A stretch of DNA of 64,000 nt from Methanomassiliicoccales archaeon (GTDB lineage Archaea > Thermoplasmatota > Thermoplasmata > Methanomassiliicoccales > UBA472). The stretch covers positions 62,001 through 126,000 of the forward strand of contig JAJRAK010000032.1 in NCBI GenBank assembly GCA_028682895.1, read 5' to 3'. Positions within the stretch are counted from its first letter, which is position 1, and each line of letters begins with the position of its first letter. Shown here one piece after another: positions 3,577 to 31,227 of this stretch. The position numbers were made by a program, and so were the translations under genes. The notes beneath the pieces are model-generated. The model saw only the letters and a list, made by a program, of their open reading frames with translations, did no database searches and was not told where the DNA came from.

Positions 3577-5199
3577 TCAGACCTCGCAGACCTTGCCTTC
3601 ATCTCCGTCGAGGTCGTTCTGCGTCATTCCGGCCAGGACATCCTTCGGGGTCCCCATGGCCACGACCTTGCCGCCCTTCATGAGCGCTACGCGGTCGCAC
3701 GTCGCCAAGATGAAGTCCATGTCATGGCTGACGATGAGGAACGTCTCGTTCAGTTCCTTGCGGGCGTGAAGAACGGACTTCGCCACCGCCTGACGGGTGA
3801 TGGGGTCCATCGTCCCGGTCGGCTCGTCGAGGATGACGAAACGCGGTTCGATTATCATGGTGCGTGCCAGGGATATGCGCTGCCTCTCGCCCACGCTCAA
3901 TGCGTCGGGATAGGCGTACAATATACGGTCGACCTCCTTGGGCGTGAAACCGACACCTCGCATGACCTGGATGGCCTTCATCTTGGCAAGCTCCTGCGGG
4001 AGCTTCATTCCCAGGCATACGGTGAGGTTCTGCAGCACCGTGTTGAACGGATAGAGCGCGTTCTCTTGGTGCATTATGCCGATGTATTGAGTGGCGCGGC
4101 CTCTGCCTTCCTCGCCCATATCGGACATGTTGATCCATTCTTCCCCGATGCGGACCAGTACGTCGCCGTGTGTCGTAGGGGTTATACCAGATATCATTCG
4201 GGACAATGTTGTCTTCCCTGCTCCACTAAGACCGATGAGACCGAATATCTCCTTATCGTTCACATCGAACGTGACATCGTCCACGGCCTTGACGACCCCC
4301 CGGACGATCGAGTAGTAATATTTCTTGGCCCCGGCCACGCGTATTACAGGTTGGCCGACCTGGACCTCCAACCCCTTCTCTTTCTCGTAGATGACATCGA
4401 AGGCCTTGGTGATCTCTTCGGGAGTGCCCTCGGCCTTGATCACCCCGTCCTCCAGCCAAATGGCGCGGTGGGACAATAGTGCGATGGCCTTAGGCCAGTG
4501 GGAGGTGACGATCATGGACATGCCCGTGTCCTTGGCCGCCTTGATGAGCGCCTTGTGAACGATATCGGCGGTCTCGGGGTCCAGCGTCCCGGTCGGTTCG
4601 TCCGCCAGGAACAGAAGTGGGTCGCGGGCGAGCTGCCTTGCCAGGACGGTCCTCTGTTTCTCCCCACCGGAAAGGTCACGGGCTATGTGCATGGTGCGGT
4701 GGGTCATGTTGACCATCTCCAGCAACCTTATGGCCCGTTCCACCTTCTTCTCGTCCGACTTTTCCTTCATCGGTTCGAACACGTTCTCTATGACCGACAG
4801 GTCACCGAACAGTGCGAACGTCCTCTGCAACATGATGGCTATGCGCCCGCGCATCACCGTGCGCACTGGGTCCCTCTCGTCCAAGGCCCAGAAGTCCACC
4901 TCCATTATCTTAGTGGGCTTGCCGCACTTGGAACATACCGCCCCTGGAGAGGGCATGTCTATCCAGCCGCAGCTTGCGCAGTGATTGACACGATAGATGA
5001 TACGACCGGAGTCCGGCTTGTACTCACGGTTCCCCCTCAGGGCGTTGATGAGGACCGACTTGCCGCTACCGCTTTTTCCGATGAGGCCGAGCACCTCACC
5101 GGTGTGAACTTTAGTGCTGATATCCTTCAGTACCAGGTTTCCATTGAAGCTCTTGGAGACCTTGTCCAATACTATGAAGACCTCTGCACTCTCAGCCAT
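3577..5199 (-). CDS. atwA: MCR activation component A2, twin ATP-binding cassette protein
   Basis: A 540-residue soluble protein with two ABC domains and no membrane segments, the pattern of component A2, which supplies ATP-driven steps in MCR activation. Walker A of the first cassette is at residues 41-48 (GKSGSGKS), with signature [10 protein letters not shown]; the second cassette has GLSGAGKTT (about residue 325) and signature [12 protein letters not shown]. Between Walker A and the signature of the first cassette, C74, C77, C89 and C92 form a CxxC-x11-CxxC knuckle that could hold zinc or an iron-sulfur cluster. It is the first gene of the atwA-mcrC unit. Upstream lies a 114-bp divergent promoter region shared with the regulator at 5314. 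Confidence 0.95.
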
Positions 5200-5287
5200 A
5201 CGAGTTTGCCAATGATTATGGCGATTATAATACTTTTCCCGTTAATGACATCTGGCCTTAACGATTGCAGTCTTGTGTAAGATATTT

Positions 5288-5308
5288 ATGGATGGATTAT
5301 ATATCCAA
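5288..5308. promoter_or_regulatory. Palindromic element of the ATGGATGGA family, between atwA and a regulator gene
   Basis: Left half-site ATGGATGGA is perfect; after spacer TTA the right half is TATATCCAA, 6 of 9 matches to the perfect half TCCATCCAT seen upstream of mcrB. The site ends 5 bp before the ATG of the regulator at 5314. An AT-rich TATA candidate (about 5281-5289) lies at or upstream of its left edge, so bound protein would block that promoter if the gene is leaderless. The atwA start is 89 bp away on the other side. A role in autoregulation is an inference. Confidence 0.55.
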
Positions 5309-5313
5309 CCATA

Positions 5314-6279
5314 ATGTCAATGTCCTTCAATTCCTATTTTGCCGGGGGGCCAACACCGAAGTTCAACGCATACCACATTTGGAAGGCGCATCAGGTCATC
5401 TCCAAAGAAGGCCCGATAGGGCGCAAGGCGCTGGCGGACGTCCTTAAGATAGGCGAGGGGAGCACTCGGACCATCCTCGACAAGATGATGAAGGAAGGGT
5501 CGATCGAAAGCTCACGACTGGGCATCACCATCACTGACCGGGGCAGGCGCAAGCTCGACACGTCTGGCATTGACGTACGACAAGTGGACCTCTCCGACCT
5601 GACCCTGGGCAAGTTCAACTGCGCGGTCCTGATCAAGGGCATGGCCGCCCGTGTGCGCATGGGATGCGAGCAGAGGGACGAGGCCGTGCGTGCCGGTGCG
5701 GTCGGAGCCACCACCCTGGTGGTCGAGAAGGGAAGGATCGTGTTCCCGGGGGACGAGGAGTTCCCGGAGCAGATACTGGTCGCCCCCCTGCGCAACTATT
5801 TCCGCATGGATGATGGCGATGTGATCGTCATCGGCTCCGCTTTCAGCTACGATGCGGCGGAAAGAGGTGCGGTCACTGCGGCCCTGTCATTGATCAACCT
5901 CAGCAAGAGATGCTGGAACGAAGGGACCAACATACTGAGCCAGGATACCGAGGCCGATGACCTGCGCTGCCTAGCATTGGCGATACATGAGCTGTTAGGT
6001 CGGTTGCCTGTCACCATGCGCAGCCGCAACCAGCTGGGAGTGCGCTGTGAGGAAGGAGAGGTCGTCGATACTCAGTTCACCGGCCCCATGCTCGAGGAGT
6101 CCCTGAAGAAGGGCACCATCATACGCCGGATCTCCACCAGCGGACCGTATAGAGGGATGCCGATAATCGCCGTCCCTATCATGAAGAAGAAGGAAGCGAT
6201 CGCCGTGATCGCCACCATGGACCTGGGGAAGGCGTCCTTCGAAGAGCTCTTGAACAAGCTGGCGAACATACGTTCCTGA
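5314..6279 (+). CDS. Winged-helix transcriptional regulator with DUF4443/DUF2111-like domains
   Basis: A 321-residue soluble protein. Residues about 15-75 form a winged helix-turn-helix (GRKALADVLKIGEGSTRTIL as the helix pair). A middle domain, about 90-185, contains CAVLIKGMAARVRMGCEQRD and resembles DUF4443. The C-terminal domain, about 205-320, resembles DUF2111, known mainly from methanogens, and looks like a ligand sensor; it has no metal motif I can identify. The gene is divergent from atwA-mcrC and lies close to mcrBDGA. Its own leader carries a copy of the ATGGATGGA element shared with mcr, a corrinoid protein and a methyltransferase gene, which makes it the first candidate for the protein binding that element. 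The family names are from memory and moderately sure. Confidence 0.75.
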   Translation: MSMSFNSYFAGGPTPKFNAYHIWKAHQVISKEGPIGRKALADVLKIGEGSTRTILDKMMKEGSIESSRLGITITDRGRRKLDTSGIDVRQVDLSDLTLGKFNCAVLIKGMAARVRMGCEQRDEAVRAGAVGATTLVVEKGRIVFPGDEEFPEQILVAPLRNYFRMDDGDVIVIGSAFSYDAAERGAVTAALSLINLSKRCWNEGTNILSQDTEADDLRCLALAIHELLGRLPVTMRSRNQLGVRCEEGEVVDTQFTGPMLEESLKKGTIIRRISTSGPYRGMPIIAVPIMKKKEAIAVIATMDLGKASFEELLNKLANIRS

Positions 6280-8079: not shown

Positions 8080-9744
8080 TTACTTGGCGGGGATGATTGC
8101 GGTCCTCTCACCAGCAGGCATGAACTCCCTCAGGCAGCCGCGACCAAACTCTTTGGTTATGTTCGCGAAGTCGAAGGGCAGGTTCTTGTCTGCGAAGGCG
8201 ATCTTGACCAACGGGTTGCACACGAAGGCGTCGCCGCGAGCGGCGTGGGGCGCCATTGCGATACCGGTGTATCCGGGCAGGTGTCCCACGTTCATGGCGT
8301 AGATCGGGTAGTTCGGACCGCGCAGCTCGTGCGGCAGGCCCTCGTCGCTCCTGTAGGAGAACGAGTTGGCTGCACCGCAGTTGTCCTGCAAGTCGTATCC
8401 GTAGAACCCGAGCCTTCCGAGCCTCTCCCTGTGCTGGTACATGGACAGATACCATCCGTTGACACCAGCGTTGGCGTTACCAGTTGCCATCGCGATACCG
8501 ATACCGGTAGCTGCGGCGGCGACAGTGGCCCTCTGGGACCCACCGAAGTGGGCTTCCATGGCGGCCGGGTAGCGCTCATACATCTCCAGGGCGTAGGAGT
8601 TGATCTCGGAACCGAGCTTCTCGATCAGGTCGGAGCTGGGCTTGCTCTTGCAGAACCCGCCGTACTTGCTCTTTATGTGATCGACTGCCCAGTAGGTGTA
8701 ATCCTCCAGGATGTTGTCGGTATAGGCTGCGGTGGCGTACTGAGTGAACCCGACCCCGCCGGACATGTATGATCCGAGGTAGATCTGGTCGAACACCACT
8801 GCACCCAGGGCAACAGCTTCCAGGGATGCGCGCGCGGGGTCGTCCGGCTTGGTCCTGGTGCTCTGCACCATGTCGGCCATTACACCGAACGGGATTCCAC
8901 CGGGCTCGTTGGGGCTCCTGGCCCTCCTTGCGGGCATCATGGTACCCATTTCCACCACTGCGGCGTGCTTGGCGGCGAAGGCGAAGTCAGCGATTGCTGC
9001 CTCACCGGCTGCTAGCCTGTAGGCGGTGATGAAGGCCATGGATATCTGCATCGCAGAGTGCCTGGATATGGTACCACCATCGCACACACGTCCAACGATG
9101 GACGGGACACGTACGACCTGCCACAGCTTCTTGCCGACAGCGGCCTTCAGCTGCTTGGCCTGGTCTGCGGGGAACTCCTTGTTGATGTCGATGACGAAGC
9201 ACTTGTCGATCTCGTCGATAAGCTCATCGTCACCAGAGAACACCTTTACGTAAGAGTCCTTCACGCACTCCGGGCATAGCTCGGCCATGTGCTCCTGGAC
9301 AACTGCTCCGCCAGGCATAGTGTGGTTAACTGCCTCTAGGTAGCGGTTGATGGTCTCAGGGGTAACTTCCTTTGACAGCCTCTTCTCGATAACGTTGTGG
9401 GCGACATCCAGACCGACGATAACGGTCCTGCGTATGTCATCCCAGCACTGCTGCATAGCAGCGTTGTTGACCCAGTGTAGGTCATCGGCCTCGCCATATA
9501 TGTCAGTGTGGGACAGCTGGTAGGGCATCAAGACCCTCTGGCCGAGCGCGACACCGACATCCTGGTTCATCATGGGGATTCCACGGGCCTTGGCGATCTT
9601 GTTCGCCTGCTCGACCCACTCCCGCTTCCTCTTCGACTGTCTCCAGCCTCCGTAGGAATAGTGCGAGGAGCGGACCTCCGTGGGGTCCTCCTTGAACTTC
9701 TTGTGCATGGCGGCGATGAACATCTTGTCCTTTTCCTTCGCCAT
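8080..9744 (-). CDS. mcrA: Methyl-coenzyme M reductase subunit alpha
   Basis: A 554-residue McrA, the catalytic subunit that reduces methyl-CoM with coenzyme B to methane. By alignment with the M. marburgensis enzyme, the axial F430 glutamine is Q150 (AVVQEH). The residues modified in that enzyme are all present: H260 (N-methyl-His), R274 (methyl-Arg, in [12 protein letters not shown]), Q404 (methyl-Gln, GGSQR), G449 (thioglycine, FYGYD), D454 and C456 (LQDNCG). Whether each is modified here is unknown, though tfuA and ycaO for the thioglycine lie nearby. The start has a strong Shine-Dalgarno, AAGGAGG, 7 nt upstream and overlapping the end of mcrG. Confidence 0.98.
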
Positions 9745-9746
9745 AT

Positions 9747-10529
9747 TTAATCCTCCTTAACATCGAAGGGCTTGAAGCCACACTTGGTCCTGAGGGTGTG
9801 AATCCTAAGGTTCTGCCTCATTACCTCTTCATCGTCCCTCATGTCCACACCGTCGGCGCGGAACATGGTGGTATGGTCCTTCAACCACTTCTCGGGCATA
9901 GGCTTTCCGACTGGGACCGGCTTGTCCAACGGGACACCGACCTGGTCCTTCACGTACTCGACTTCTCCCTTCTTAGCGTTCCATCGGAACCGCTGCCAGG
10001 CGTCGAACATCATTCCGTTCTGGTCAAGCCTGACGGCGTGCCCGTGAACGGTCGCTCCCCTGATACCAGTTCTTGCGGTATCGAAGGTCTCGTTGTCGAT
10101 GAGTTCCTTGGCGACCTTTTCGACGTCCCTCTCCCTCATCTCGATGATCTGCCTTCCGGACAGGGTACCGGTATCAATTCCTCTGTACCTGCACATGTAC
10201 ATCTGAGCCCTCACGTAGGGGATTATGGGGGCCCAATACACGGAGTCAGTGAACTGAACGTACCTGATCCTGTCACCCTTCTTCGCACCTTCTATGGGCT
10301 CGACCAATGCCCTTATGGGGCAGTCGGGCTCGTTACCCTCCTCGAGCGGCGGGTGGATGGTGGCGTAGTCAGAACCGGGGGTCCTGTGACCCAAGATCTT
10401 GACGACGTCGTCCATGGGAATGTCACGGAGCTTCTCCAGCTTGACGCTGGGGTCCATGAATCGCCTCCTGTTCTTGGCGGGCAGGGTGGTGCCTGGATAG
10501 AATTGTGCTTTGTACTTTGTCTTAGCCAT
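9747..10529 (-). CDS. mcrG: Methyl-coenzyme M reductase subunit gamma
   Basis: A 260-residue McrG of full family length. Typical blocks are [55 protein letters not shown] and the [20 protein letters not shown] region that contacts F430 and coenzyme M. It packs in the (alpha-beta-gamma)2 hexamer. It lies 1 bp from mcrD and 2 bp from mcrA, so it is fully coupled within mcrBDGA. No mcrC lies between mcrD and mcrG, unlike mcrBDCGA operons. Confidence 0.98.
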
Positions 10530-10530
10530 G

Positions 10531-10953
10531 TTATTTCACCAATCCTTTGTTATAATCTGTAGTAGTCGGCTTGAACTTCGAGTATCTGCCTACCTCCAAA
10601 TTAAAACTGAACGGAAGAACTTCCTTACAAACAGCTTCGATGTCCTTCATGGCCTGCGGTACGAGATCGATATCGCATATCTCGACGAAGATGCGCCCGA
10701 CCTGGACCGTAAGCTCGATCTCCTCGCCCTTGACCTTTATCTTCTTGCGTTCCGGATGATTGACAGGGCCACCAGTGCCAGGACCGGCCTTTATGATAGC
10801 AGGCAGGCCCTCGCCCTGGATGTTGATCTGTCTGACGTTCTTCACGGCGTACAGCTTGTTCAGCAATAGCTCCGTGGTGTCAGCGAATAGCAATCTTTCC
10901 GGGAAGATGAGTATCTCGGGCAGGGGGACCGATTCAGAGGTAGACTTGCTCAT
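10531..10953 (-). CDS. mcrD: Methyl-coenzyme M reductase operon protein D
   Basis: A 140-residue McrD, an accessory protein found only with MCR. It associates with MCR but is not part of the mature enzyme; a chaperone-like or F430-related role has been proposed. Recognisable blocks are [20 protein letters not shown] and [14 protein letters not shown]. It sits between mcrB (2 bp) and mcrG (1 bp). Its length is slightly short of many family members. Confidence 0.95.
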
Positions 10954-10955
10954 GT

Positions 10956-12284
10956 TCAGACCAGCTCCTTCAGCTTCTTGGCCTCCTTACCGACCATCTT
11001 CATCGGGCTCTTGAACTCCGGGATGTCACCGAACACTTCCTTCAGGATGAGGGAGGTGTTCTCGGCGCTGAAGTACTGAGTACCAGCGTCCAAGGCGCAT
11101 CCAGCAGCGATAACCGGGTTGACGGTTCCCTTCGCGTGTCTGGTAACCACGTGGTTTCCGTGGAACAGACCCGGGCCGCCTCCACCATAGATAGAGTGGC
11201 TGAAGAAGGACATACCGACCGCGGTACCCATTGCCCTGCCGTAGTCTAGTCCAGGCAGGCTGGTCTCATGCTCCACCAGGTCGTTGAAGTACAGAACGGT
11301 GGACGGGATACCTTGTGCTGCCCTGGCGGCACCGATGTTCACGCATATTGCGGACAGCATACCGGCGGCAACGTAGGCGTTCCATAGCGGGTAGTCGTTG
11401 GTGGTGTACTCAACGAATCCGGATGGGAACTTCTTTCCCTTCTTGATTACCTTGTCTTCCAAAGCCCTTCCGACCATGGACGCGACGACATCACCGACAG
11501 TGCCGGTCTTGCCGTTCTCCTTGACCCAGCTATAGGCCAGGTTGTTGGCGTTCAGGCCCTGGTAGGCCAGGGACAACAGGTGCTGCCTCTCGAAGTTACC
11601 GACAGCGTCACCCATTTCGTAGGCGGCTGCGGTCTCGTATATAGAGGACAGAGCGGCTGCGTTCATGGCGTTCCTGCCAGTCAGCATGACGATGTGGTTC
11701 GCGGTGATGTTCCTCAGAGCGAAACCGGTTCCCTCGTTCAGCTGCGGTACATCAAGGATGGTCTTCAGGTTGGATCCCAACATGTTGATGGTCTGCGGGT
11801 ATCTTCCCCAGACTGCTCCCTTGACCATCGAGGCCTCGAACATGTTCACATCGAACTGGTCGATTATGGCCTCAGTGACGGCGGCTGCTACGGCGGTGAA
11901 TCCGGTCGTGTACTCGGCACCAGCGTCAATCCTTACGCTGGGGCAGGTAACGACCATCCTCTTGCCTTCGGCCATCGTCCTGATCTCGGTGTCGTCATCC
12001 TTGCTGACCTTGAGAATGTCTTTGATCCTCTTGCCTAATTTGTCAGCGTTCGCCACTACAGCGACGTTCAAAACCCTGCCAGGGACGTTCAATCCGCCAA
12101 CCGCTCCGGTCTTGAGACCCTTCTCAATACCTTCTAGGTTGACAGCGATGGTCCTCTTTGTCAGAGAGATGGTTCGCTTAATGGCTGCGTTGTTTAAAGG
12201 ACTTATAGCGTCCAGAGGCACATCTTTCTCGATTATTTTGCCTCTGTCGTCATACAAGTCCACCTTGTCCTTGTATTTTGCCAT
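10956..12284 (-). CDS. mcrB: Methyl-coenzyme M reductase subunit beta
   Basis: A 442-residue McrB, first gene of the mcr operon. Family blocks include KYKDKVDLYDDRGKIIEKDV, LEGIEKGLKTGAVGG and, near the C-terminus, FFSHSIYGGGGPGLFHGNHV, which lines the F430/coenzyme B channel. A strong Shine-Dalgarno (AGGAGG) precedes the ATG by about 6 nt. The promoter lies in the 272-bp gap upstream: a TATA-like element at 12381-12391 and, 6 bp beyond, a perfect palindromic element at 12397-12417. The inferred leader is about 75 nt. Confidence 0.98.
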   Translation of the reverse strand: MAKYKDKVDLYDDRGKIIEKDVPLDAISPLNNAAIKRTISLTKRTIAVNLEGIEKGLKTGAVGGLNVPGRVLNVAVVANADKLGKRIKDILKVSKDDDTEIRTMAEGKRMVVTCPSVRIDAGAEYTTGFTAVAAAVTEAIIDQFDVNMFEASMVKGAVWGRYPQTINMLGSNLKTILDVPQLNEGTGFALRNITANHIVMLTGRNAMNAAALSSIYETAAAYEMGDAVGNFERQHLLSLAYQGLNANNLAYSWVKENGKTGTVGDVVASMVGRALEDKVIKKGKKFPSGFVEYTTNDYPLWNAYVAAGMLSAICVNIGAARAAQGIPSTVLYFNDLVEHETSLPGLDYGRAMGTAVGMSFFSHSIYGGGGPGLFHGNHVVTRHAKGTVNPVIAAGCALDAGTQYFSAENTSLILKEVFGDIPEFKSPMKMVGKEAKKLKELV

Positions 12285-12364: not shown

Positions 12365-12391
12365 CTACAATGTGTAGACATAATATATAGT
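12365..12391 (-). promoter_or_regulatory. mcr operon core promoter
   Basis: On the minus strand a TATA-like element ACTATATATTA lies at 12381-12391. Transcription would start roughly 25 nt downstream, near 12360, giving a leader of about 75 nt before mcrB. A short inverted repeat, CTACA then ATG then TGTAG, occupies 12365-12377 between the TATA box and the inferred start. Positions are read by eye; no start-site data are available. Confidence 0.6.
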
Positions 12392-12396
12392 TGATG

Positions 12397-12417
12397 ATGG
12401 ATGGATAGTCCATCCAT
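12397..12417. promoter_or_regulatory. Perfect palindromic operator-like element upstream of the mcr operon
   Basis: Half-site ATGGATGGA, spacer TAG, half-site TCCATCCAT: a perfect 9-3-9 inverted repeat. It lies 6 bp upstream of the mcr TATA box, a position typical of archaeal activators that help recruit TBP/TFB. Imperfect copies with the same 9-3-9 geometry occur at 5288, 31176 and 31207, and a partial copy at 24815, all in intergenic regions next to methanogenesis genes. Confidence 0.7.
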
Positions 12418-14448: not shown

Positions 14449-14928
14449 CTACCGTTCATCATCGTTCTGCGCCAGGGGGATGACCAGATCGAACATGGCA
14501 TCCTCGTTCATGGCGATGCGCTCGATCAGGATGTCCACCTCGACCCTCTGCACGCCGGGGATGTTGACTATCTTGTCCTGTATCAGATCATACAGGCTGT
14601 CCACGCTGGTGGAGTAGACCTCGCAGACCAAGGAATGGTCTCCGAATACCTTGTATACATATCGTATCCCGGGGTACTTCTTCAGCTCCTCGATCACCGC
14701 AGATAATGGTGCGCCGACCACCTGGAGACCTATATGGGCCCGCATGAGGCCGACCTTGGAGGTGTTCAGCTGCATCGTGTAAGCGTTGATGTAGCCGTCC
14801 TTCTCCAAACGGGAGATACGTCTGCTGACGGTCGCCTTGGACACCTTCAGCTGCTCAGCTATGACGCTCAGGTTCTCCCGGGCGTTCTTGCGTAGCATCC
14901 TGAGTATCTCAAGGTCAGTGGTGTCCAT
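14449..14928 (-). CDS. Lrp/AsnC family transcriptional regulator
   Basis: About 159 residues from the ATG at 14928 (MDTTDLEILRMLRKNAREN); an in-frame start 30 bp upstream would add MICKLFAGRP and looks unlikely. An N-terminal winged HTH (LSVIAEQLKVSKATVSRRIS) is followed by a RAM-type ligand-binding domain with VFGDHSLVCEVYSTSVDSLY and IVNIPGVQRVEVDI. Such proteins usually form dimers to octamers and sense amino acids. It lies 45 bp upstream of ycaO in the same direction, so it may be co-transcribed with ycaO-tfuA. Target genes are unknown. Confidence 0.9.
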   Translation of the reverse strand: MDTTDLEILRMLRKNARENLSVIAEQLKVSKATVSRRISRLEKDGYINAYTMQLNTSKVGLMRAHIGLQVVGAPLSAVIEELKKYPGIRYVYKVFGDHSLVCEVYSTSVDSLYDLIQDKIVNIPGVQRVEVDILIERIAMNEDAMFDLVIPLAQNDDER

Positions 14929-15045
14929 TGGTCGTCCTGCAAATAATTTGCATATCAAGCAACATTTTGAGGAGTATTTGGAACTATGTCAGGAATTTTA
15001 TGAAAAATAATTGAACATCCGGATTACGAACCGGTCCGGCCCCGA

Positions 15046-24724: not shown

Positions 24725-24814
24725 ACCGATGGGATACTGAGTGGATGAAATTATTATCAATCGTTTCATATGAATAATCCATAGCCAGATATGAAAAAAT
24801 CAACACCTGTTAAA

Positions 24815-24829
24815 GGATGGTCCATCCAT
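24815..24829. promoter_or_regulatory. Partial ATGGATGGA-family element upstream of an MtaA/MtbA-type gene
   Basis: The right half-site TCCATCCAT (24821-24829) is perfect. The preceding GGATGG matches the mcr site at GGAT and G, so 14 of 15 bases agree over this stretch, but the outer left half is absent. It also forms its own small inverted repeat GGATGG-T-CCATCC. It lies 82 bp upstream of the start codon, with a weak TATA-like stretch following. Confidence 0.5.
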
Positions 24830-24911
24830 CTAAATCCCCGATAGATTAATGTACGGTAAAAAAGATACTCGGGATAGGTCAGATTCCTACTGGATATAAG
24901 GAGGAATGAAT

Positions 24912-25928
24912 TTGTCTAAAAAAATGACTCCGAGGGACAGAGTATTGGATGCCCTTAAGGGCAAGCAGCACGACAGGCCGCCGGTCGCGGTCTTCACTCA
25001 GAGCGCCACCATCGGCCAGATGAACGCACTTGGCGTTAGCTGGCCTGAGGCCCACTATGACGTTGATAAGATGGTCACTTTGGGCGCAGGACAGGCCAAG
25101 GTTTTCGGGTTCGAGGCCGTAAGGGCCCCATTCTGCCTGACCGCCGAGGCTGAGAGCCTAGGATTGACCGTTGACAAGGGACGCCCGGACAGGACCCCTA
25201 TGCTGAAAGGACACCCCTTCGCAATGGAGGACACCCCCGCCCTTATGGATGTCGCAACCTTCCTGAAGACCGGCCGCGCCGCAGTCGTTCAGAAGGCCAT
25301 CACGAAGATGAAGGCCCAGTACGGAGCCGAATACCCGGTCATCGCCGGTAACACCGGACCGTTCACCTTGGCCGGCCACCTGGTCGGGACCGAGAACTTG
25401 GTGCTCTACATAATGGTCGACCCCTCCCTGGTTCACGTCTGGGTAAAGGCCGTCAACGAAATATGCACGGGATACACCCAGGCATTGGCTGATGCTGGAG
25501 CCGACATCGTTCAGATGTCCGAGCCTTCCGCAAGCACCGACCTGTTGTCCCCCGATATGTTCGACGAGTACGCGGGTACCTACCTGAAGACCTGCTTGGC
25601 CCCGGTCAAGAAGGCCACTGGTGTATTGCACATCTGCGGCAACACTACCCCCATCCTGAACAACATGATCGCGACCGGGTGCAAGGCCTTGTCCATTGAA
25701 GAGAAGGTCGTTCCGGAAGAGGCTGTCAGGATAGTCAACAAGCGCGCCGCCCTGGTCGGTAACATCGGCGTGGTCAACCCTCTGTTGCAGGGTACCCCGG
25801 CTGACGTCTTGGCCCATGGAAAGCGCTGCGTCGCTGCCGGCTTCGATGTCGTTGCCCCCGGATGCGGACTCTCCGCCCTGATCAAGGACGAGAACCTGGC
25901 CGCACTGGTAAAGGCCGTAAAGGGCTAA
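24912..25928 (+). CDS. Methylcobamide:coenzyme M methyltransferase (MtaA/MtbA type)
   Basis: About 338 residues, beginning MSKKMTPRDRVLDALKGKQH. This enzyme takes the methyl group from a corrinoid protein and gives it to coenzyme M, producing the substrate of MCR. Zinc ligands are H-x-C in LHICGNTTP and the distal cysteine in APGCGLS. An ATG at 24906 directly abuts the Shine-Dalgarno AAGGAGGA (24898-24905), which leaves no spacer. A TTG at 24912 has the ideal 7-nt spacing, so I choose it. The codon choice is regular, as in a highly expressed gene. Whether it is MtaA (methanol) or MtbA (methylamines) cannot be decided here. Confidence 0.88.
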   Translation: MSKKMTPRDRVLDALKGKQHDRPPVAVFTQSATIGQMNALGVSWPEAHYDVDKMVTLGAGQAKVFGFEAVRAPFCLTAEAESLGLTVDKGRPDRTPMLKGHPFAMEDTPALMDVATFLKTGRAAVVQKAITKMKAQYGAEYPVIAGNTGPFTLAGHLVGTENLVLYIMVDPSLVHVWVKAVNEICTGYTQALADAGADIVQMSEPSASTDLLSPDMFDEYAGTYLKTCLAPVKKATGVLHICGNTTPILNNMIATGCKALSIEEKVVPEEAVRIVNKRAALVGNIGVVNPLLQGTPADVLAHGKRCVAAGFDVVAPGCGLSALIKDENLAALVKAVKG

Positions 25929-30471: not shown

Positions 30472-31113
30472 TTACTTGTGCCCGATCAGGAGCTTGGTTG
30501 CCACGGCAACGGCTTCGTTGGCATCGTAGCCCCAGCCGTCCGCGCCAATGCTCTTGGCGAAGTCTGCGGAGGTAGCGCCGCCACCGACCATGGTCTTGAT
30601 CTTGCCCTTCAGGCCACCCTCGGCCAGCATCTTCTCGATCTCCTTCATTCCCGCCAGGGTGGGGGTCATGAGGGTGGAGGTCGCGATTATGTGGGCGTTC
30701 TCGTCCTTTGCCTTCTGAACGATGTCCTTCAGGGGTACATCGCGGCCGAGGTCGAAGATAGTGTTTCCAGCTCCGGTCATCAGGGCCTTGACGATGTTCT
30801 TACCGATGTCGTGCACATCTCCCTCTACAACGCAGAGGACGACCTTACCGGCAGCTCCTGCAGATGCAGCGTCGAGCTTCGGCAAAGCCAGGTTCAATCC
30901 CTGGTACAGGGTCTGAGCGGACAAAAGAACCTGGGGCAGGAAGTACTCCTTCTTCTCGTACTTCTCACCGACGATCTTCATGGCCTCGCTCAGTCCGTTG
31001 AATATGATCTCCTTAGCGGAGACTCCCTGATCGAGGAGTGCCTGGGTAGCTCCCTTGGCTTCCTTGATCTTCCCCTTTACAACGATGTCAATCAATGCAT
31101 CCATGTTTGCCAT
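30472..31113 (-). CDS. Corrinoid protein of a methyltransferase system (MtaC/MtbC/MttC type)
   Basis: A 213-residue protein with an N-terminal helical cap domain (residues 1-80) and a B12-binding Rossmann domain with base-off motif D99-x-H101-x2-G104 (EGDVHDIGKNI), then STLMTPT and MVGGGATS. It carries the methyl group between a substrate methyltransferase and a MtaA/MtbA enzyme. The start MANMDALID has Shine-Dalgarno GGAGGA 7 nt upstream. Usually such a gene lies beside its substrate methyltransferase (mtaB, mtmB, mtbB, mttB), but none is in this window, so the substrate is unknown. Two operator-like palindromes and a clear TATA box precede it. Confidence 0.9.
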   Translation of the reverse strand: MANMDALIDIVVKGKIKEAKGATQALLDQGVSAKEIIFNGLSEAMKIVGEKYEKKEYFLPQVLLSAQTLYQGLNLALPKLDAASAGAAGKVVLCVVEGDVHDIGKNIVKALMTGAGNTIFDLGRDVPLKDIVQKAKDENAHIIATSTLMTPTLAGMKEIEKMLAEGGLKGKIKTMVGGGATSADFAKSIGADGWGYDANEAVAVATKLLIGHK

Positions 31114-31154
31114 TAATATTTCCTCCAAAGAAGTTTTCTGCGTCCAAATTTCAA

Positions 31155-31175: not shown

Positions 31176-31196
31176 ATGGATGGATGCAACATCCAT
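31176..31196. promoter_or_regulatory. ATGGATGGA-family palindromic element, copy proximal to the corrinoid gene
   Basis: Perfect left half ATGGATGGA, spacer TGC, right half AACATCCAT with 7 of 9 matches to TCCATCCAT. It has the same 9-3-9 layout as the mcr site and lies just upstream of the TATA box of the corrinoid protein gene. Confidence 0.65.
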
Positions 31197-31206
31197 ATGG
31201 TCTACA

Positions 31207-31227
31207 ATGGATGGATTAATAATCCAT
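31207..31227. promoter_or_regulatory. ATGGATGGA-family palindromic element, copy distal to the corrinoid gene
   Basis: Perfect left half ATGGATGGA, spacer TTA, right half ATAATCCAT with 6 of 9 matches. It starts exactly 31 bp from the start of the proximal copy, close to three DNA turns, so bound dimers would lie on the same face. The AmrS-like gene ends 43 bp further on. Confidence 0.62.

Follow-up and report, generated by a model that had tools for sequence, protein, structure and literature searches.

The regulator gene and the palindrome in its leader

The window, that is, the whole stretch of 64,000 nucleotides that was analysed, comes from an assembly that comprises 63 contigs and 1.66 Mb and whose relatives recovered by sequence are Methanomassiliicoccales. 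It contains a regulator gene (5314..6279, + strand, 321 aa) that points away from atwA-mcrC, the start of atwA being at 5199, which confirms the divergent arrangement described in an earlier note made from the letters alone. The clustering of mcr with methanogenesis marker genes in this order has been noted before (PMC4153887), and the accessible part of that paper names no regulator of the cluster. The encoded protein consists of a winged helix (approximately residues 31-80; PF22167, 42.8 bits, cut-off 30.2), a DUF4443 domain (residues 98-194; PF14544, 97.3 bits, cut-off 27) and a DUF2111 domain (residues 224-304; PF09884, 96.4 bits, cut-off 27), in agreement with the winged helix and methanogen-type C-terminal domain recognised earlier; a search of Pfam and NCBIfam at E values up to 1 gave no match to an Lrp/AsnC domain. 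DUF2111 was found in 18/18 genomes of the order and in 0/127 genomes of the rest of the phylum, and DUF2111 proteins are also present in Methanocaldococcus and Methanosarcina. Homologues of the regulator were found in 119/120 genomes of the order. Our literature searches returned no publication naming DUF2111 or DUF4443.

A palindrome, ATGGATGGATTATATATCCAA, occupies 5288-5308, leaving 5 bp to the ATG at 5314. Its exact core, TGGAT-N5-ATCCA, spans 5293-5307, 6 bp ahead of the ATG. The palindrome follows a TATA-like box (ATATTTAT, 5282..5289, + strand) in the promoter of the regulator, as had been proposed, and the position of this box implies a nearly leaderless regulator transcript. The palindrome, of the form GGATGGAT-N5-ATCCA(TCC), is predicted to be the operator of the regulator gene and belongs to a type of site termed class A below. 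A site with no more than one mismatch lies within 45 bp of the start codon in 53/79 leaders of relatives, where mononucleotide shuffling gave a mean of 0.14. Across the distinct 5′ regions of homologues (n = 80), 31 have the core with no mismatch and 22 with one. These leaders span six families (f1-f6) and are related sequences, so they are not independent. Leaders of family f2 often carry a changed spacing (TGGATG-N7-CATCCA). Among the homologue 5′ regions scanned, the operator is absent from the f2/g8 and g25 regulators, and it is also absent from five other regulator copies, four of which are second copies in f1 genomes and one of which is in G004. Full-length homologues, 46-49% identical and without the operator, were seen at L098, L099, L100, L101 and L107. 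A conserved operator in its own leader is what would be expected of an autoregulated archaeal transcription regulator, and the leaders of this gene have one.

It is the conserved position in relatives, rather than the number of occurrences, that makes the element secure. The window holds 4 exact 15-mers (0.1-0.2 expected), and the genome holds 9 exact cores where Markov models predict 2-5; a reversed-pattern control gave 0 matches, but differs in composition and makes the genome count look better than it is. Outside the order, the background of core palindromes in the phylum is approximately 4.6 per genome. Exact matches to the core pattern with the sequence TGGATTGCTAATCCA, at L184:2001-2015 and L201:1501-1515, resemble parts of tRNA genes and are a source of false positives. 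The genome-wide count of the core alone is weak evidence, and it was rejected as proof on the strength of these expected counts, the background and the tRNA-like matches.

Class A elements at mcr, corrinoid protein and MtaA-like genes

The class A motif is GGATGGAT-N5-ATCCATCC and variants, with the core form TGGAT-N5-ATCCATCC. One element (TGGATGGATAGTCCATCCA, 12398..12416) lies 5′ of the candidate TATA box (12380..12389, - strand, conserved spacing) of mcrB-mcrD-mcrG-mcrA (8080..12284, - strand), the putative target operon, and is kept in 26/29 mcrB upstream regions. Two more precede a gene for a 214 aa corrinoid protein of methyltransferase systems (30472..31116, - strand; PF02310 and PF02607, with TIGR02370, below its cut-off, as the top NCBIfam match), which is also a putative target: element 1, at 31177..31195, is nearer the TATA box, and element 2 is at 31208..31226. 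At mcr and the corrinoid gene the elements are thus found 5′ of the TATA box, where they had been placed before. A weaker class A-like site (AGGATGGTCCATCCA, 24814..24828) stands before a gene for an MtaA/CmuA-type methylcobamide:CoM methyltransferase (24906..25928, + strand; PF01208, with NF004889 and TIGR01463 above cut-off), which may be a further target.

In the 11 class A genomes there are 35 sites, and 31 of the 32 that were examined belong to one of three kinds of gene, namely the regulator (9), mcrB (8) and corrinoid protein genes (14). The single off-pattern member in the source genome is an ABC transporter gene on contig C13. Strand-hits of the class A motif average 2.3 per genome in the order and 6.5 in the source genus, and approximately 0.2 outside the order. 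The mcr site is absent in 16/17 genomes of family f2 examined (L291-L295, L297-L305, L309 and L310), although f2 regulators mostly retain an operator, so mcr control is proposed for one f2 genus and for the families other than f2. The earlier idea of one regulon thus stands in that class A sites mark the regulator, mcrB and corrinoid genes, and has to be amended in that its content varies by family. The literature found does not name a dedicated regulator for the mcr operon in Methanomassiliicoccales.

An Lrp/AsnC-type gene at 14449-14958 of the window adjoins ycaO and mcr, and is kept in most of the order.

Class B elements at cobalamin genes

A second type of site, class B, has the motif TTGGAT-N5-ATCCAA (for example TTGGATGATATATCCAA) and is separated from class A by its flanks. 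Class B sites are found at genes for cobyric acid synthase, BtuF-like and CobT-like proteins, a CbiT-sized methyltransferase and a threonine-dehydrogenase-like protein, among others; those of the cobyric acid synthase, BtuF-like and threonine-dehydrogenase-like genes are at L012:9164, 12749 and 12772, and L013:7980. There are 3.8 sites per genome in the order vs approximately 0.25 outside it. Beside these sites, L012:11001-11861 is a truncated second CobQ-like copy directly following a full cobQ, which has an N-terminal cysteine-rich domain.

A paralogue of the regulator that has only the DUF4443 domain, encoded on contig C6, carries a recognition helix near-identical to that of the regulator (IGEGSMRTI against IGEGSTRTI), and in G034 a class B-type site is located at a gene adjoining this paralogue. 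Class B may define a cobalamin regulon in the order, and we hypothesise that the DUF4443-only paralogue reads it. All TGGAT sites had been considered as a single regulon, and this was rejected after the flanks divided them into classes A and B: the TGGAT core also marks this second class, which is probably not under the control of the DUF2111 protein. The possibility that a CblR-like cobalamin regulator reads class A was discarded as well, the class A sites examined being at the regulator, mcrB and corrinoid genes and not at cobalamin synthesis. The class B palindrome may be linked to the archaeal CBL-box of CblR. As a tentative evolutionary scenario, which we regard as possible though not probable, a PH0730-like cobalamin regulator may have been duplicated and gained a DUF2111 sensor of a methyl-pathway metabolite, becoming a master regulator of methyl-reducing methanogenesis, with the paralogues dividing the TGGAT half-site by its flanks (TTGGAT-N5-ATCCAA at cobalamin genes, GGATGGAT-N5-ATCCATCC at mcr and corrinoid genes).

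Natural loss of the regulator and its sites

Two genomes from sister species, G010 and G014 (99% complete), have no regulator gene; only the DUF4443-only paralogue was found in them. In G014, approximately 310 bp (L313:12082-12392) separate atwA from the gene usually found after the regulator, and since atwA and this next cluster gene abut, the regulator gene was lost alone. In G010, where the regulator is likewise absent, atwA and the usual next gene are approximately 20 kb apart. Neither genome has a class A site (0 in each, vs 2-4 in sister species with the regulator gene), and they retain 16 (G010) and 13 (G014) cores with other flanks. Their mcr promoters have kept the TATA box, and the element has decayed to the remnant ATCCAACTA. 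The two losses are probably one evolutionary event. Co-occurrence of regulator and motif across genomes, which the earlier note had named as a check, is seen in this joint loss but is incomplete elsewhere: in G044, mcr and a corrinoid gene have class A sites and no full-length regulator was found, the mcr genes running off the end of a contig; the regulator of G006 is divergent (48%), its own site is degenerate and the genome lacks exact class A sites; and G022 has a regulator and no exact class A site.

Position relative to the TATA box and proposed mechanism

Spacing between site and TATA box was taken as the offset of listed TATA-like hexamers in distinct sequences, because a generic TATA score over the entire upstream region misplaced the boxes. 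In regulator leaders the hexamer most often starts 9-10 bp 5′ of the element, and it is 3′ of the element in 0/52. At mcrB (n = 29 distinct sequences) the hexamer start is mostly 9-13 bp 3′ of the element, and at corrinoid protein genes (n = 17) mostly 12-13 bp 3′. In archaea, the typical place for an activator is upstream of the BRE and that for a repressor is on the promoter or 3′ of it (PMC5512572), so this fixed and opposite placement fits repression of the regulator's own gene together with activation of the targets.

Taken together, we favour a reading, based on sequence comparison, in which the DUF2111 protein reads class A, represses its own gene and activates the mcr and corrinoid genes. 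In this model the protein would be a sequence-specific transcription regulator that recognises the class A palindrome, probably as a dimer. That the class A site belongs to the DUF2111 regulator, which would bind it, is likely. Self-repression is also likely: protein bound to the site in its own promoter, which is 3′ of the TATA box and 5′ of the start codon, would block polymerase in a negative feedback. Archaeal activators bound just upstream of the TATA box and BRE recruit TBP or TFB. The site occupies such a position at the mcr and corrinoid genes, and probably at the MtaA-like gene, so binding should switch these genes, and with them the methyl-reducing pathway, on; the position of the sites makes this activation of mcr and corrinoid genes reasonably probable. 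Of the earlier claim that the regulator represses itself and activates its targets, the autoregulatory part and the opposite geometry are thus strongly supported by conservation and natural loss, and activation is deduced from position only.

The C-terminal DUF2111 domain may tune this regulation by binding a small molecule. Structure models had mean pLDDT values of 52 and 63, their low confidence being due to a shallow alignment (12 sequences), and the sensor fold is therefore only a hint. The best structural match of the full regulator model was 9heh (Z 8.6, rmsd 2.7, 100 aligned) and that of the model of DUF2111 alone was 6d8v (Z 7.4, rmsd 3.7, 108 aligned); no solved structure matched the domain significantly when searched by sequence. 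The models weakly suggest a resemblance to PAS/GAF/Cache ligand-binding folds, since Z values of 7-8.6 can reflect a common arrangement only, and a sensing role for DUF2111 is plausible, the C1 signal suggested in the earlier note being a candidate ligand.

The same protein could instead repress everywhere, the mcr and corrinoid genes included, if the upstream site hindered TFB and a ligand relieved this hindrance. The element ends approximately 9-13 bp before the TATA box, beside the BRE, which is near enough for steric hindrance. However, site and TATA box keep a fixed distance and do not overlap at mcr and corrinoid genes, in contrast to their arrangement in the promoter of the regulator itself, and the two species without the gene lost the mcr element yet kept the TATA box; repression throughout is thus unlikely.

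Class A might also have another reader, either the Lrp/AsnC protein encoded beside ycaO or the DUF4443-only paralogue. The Lrp gene adjoins mcr in 13/14 class A genomes checked and was not found within the 60 kb examined in G010 and G014, and because it too is missing near mcr in these two genomes, it remains a rival. G029, however, keeps the class A sites of mcr and the regulator, although no Lrp gene was found in the 9 kb 5′ of mcrB; this speaks for the DUF2111 protein. Nor was a class A site observed at lrp, whereas the DUF2111 regulator has one. The paralogue, despite its near-identical recognition helix, is retained in G010 and G014, which have no class A site. A different reader is accordingly considered quite improbable. 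That the element is a promoter or chromatin feature of strong promoters with no dedicated regulator is very improbable: it does keep a fixed distance from TATA boxes, and its core has a background in the phylum, but the side of the TATA box on which it lies depends on the gene, it is nearly restricted to three kinds of gene and it vanishes together with the regulator gene.

Comparison with known systems

A role for the DUF2111 protein as reader of class A would be the first suggested for a protein family that is confined to methanogens in the genomes searched, and the gene with its operator, the likely targets and the natural loss make control of the mcr enzyme in this order open to direct tests.

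The nearest solved structure is PH0730 of Pyrococcus horikoshii (PDB 2p8t; PF22167 and PF14544; E 1.6e-11 over regulator residues 31-190), for which no function was reported in the literature found. Both proteins have a winged helix and DUF4443 and share the same recognition-helix pattern, but PH0730, unlike the regulator, has no DUF2111 domain. CblR of Pyrococcus is a predicted cobalamin regulator, the regulator itself being unknown (PMC10746257). The present genomes resemble that system in having a TGGAT palindrome, class B, at cobalamin genes and a DUF4443-only paralogue, and differ from it in that class A is at mcr and corrinoid genes and not at cobalamin synthesis. EarA of Methanococcus maripaludis and Ptr2 of Methanocaldococcus jannaschii bind upstream of the BRE (PMC5512572), and the predicted sites just upstream of the BRE and TATA box at mcrB and corrinoid genes have the same placement; protein and site nevertheless differ from the regulator and class A, and activation is here only predicted from position. 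The DUF2111 protein and class A therefore appear to form a new regulator-operator pair of a general kind that is already known.
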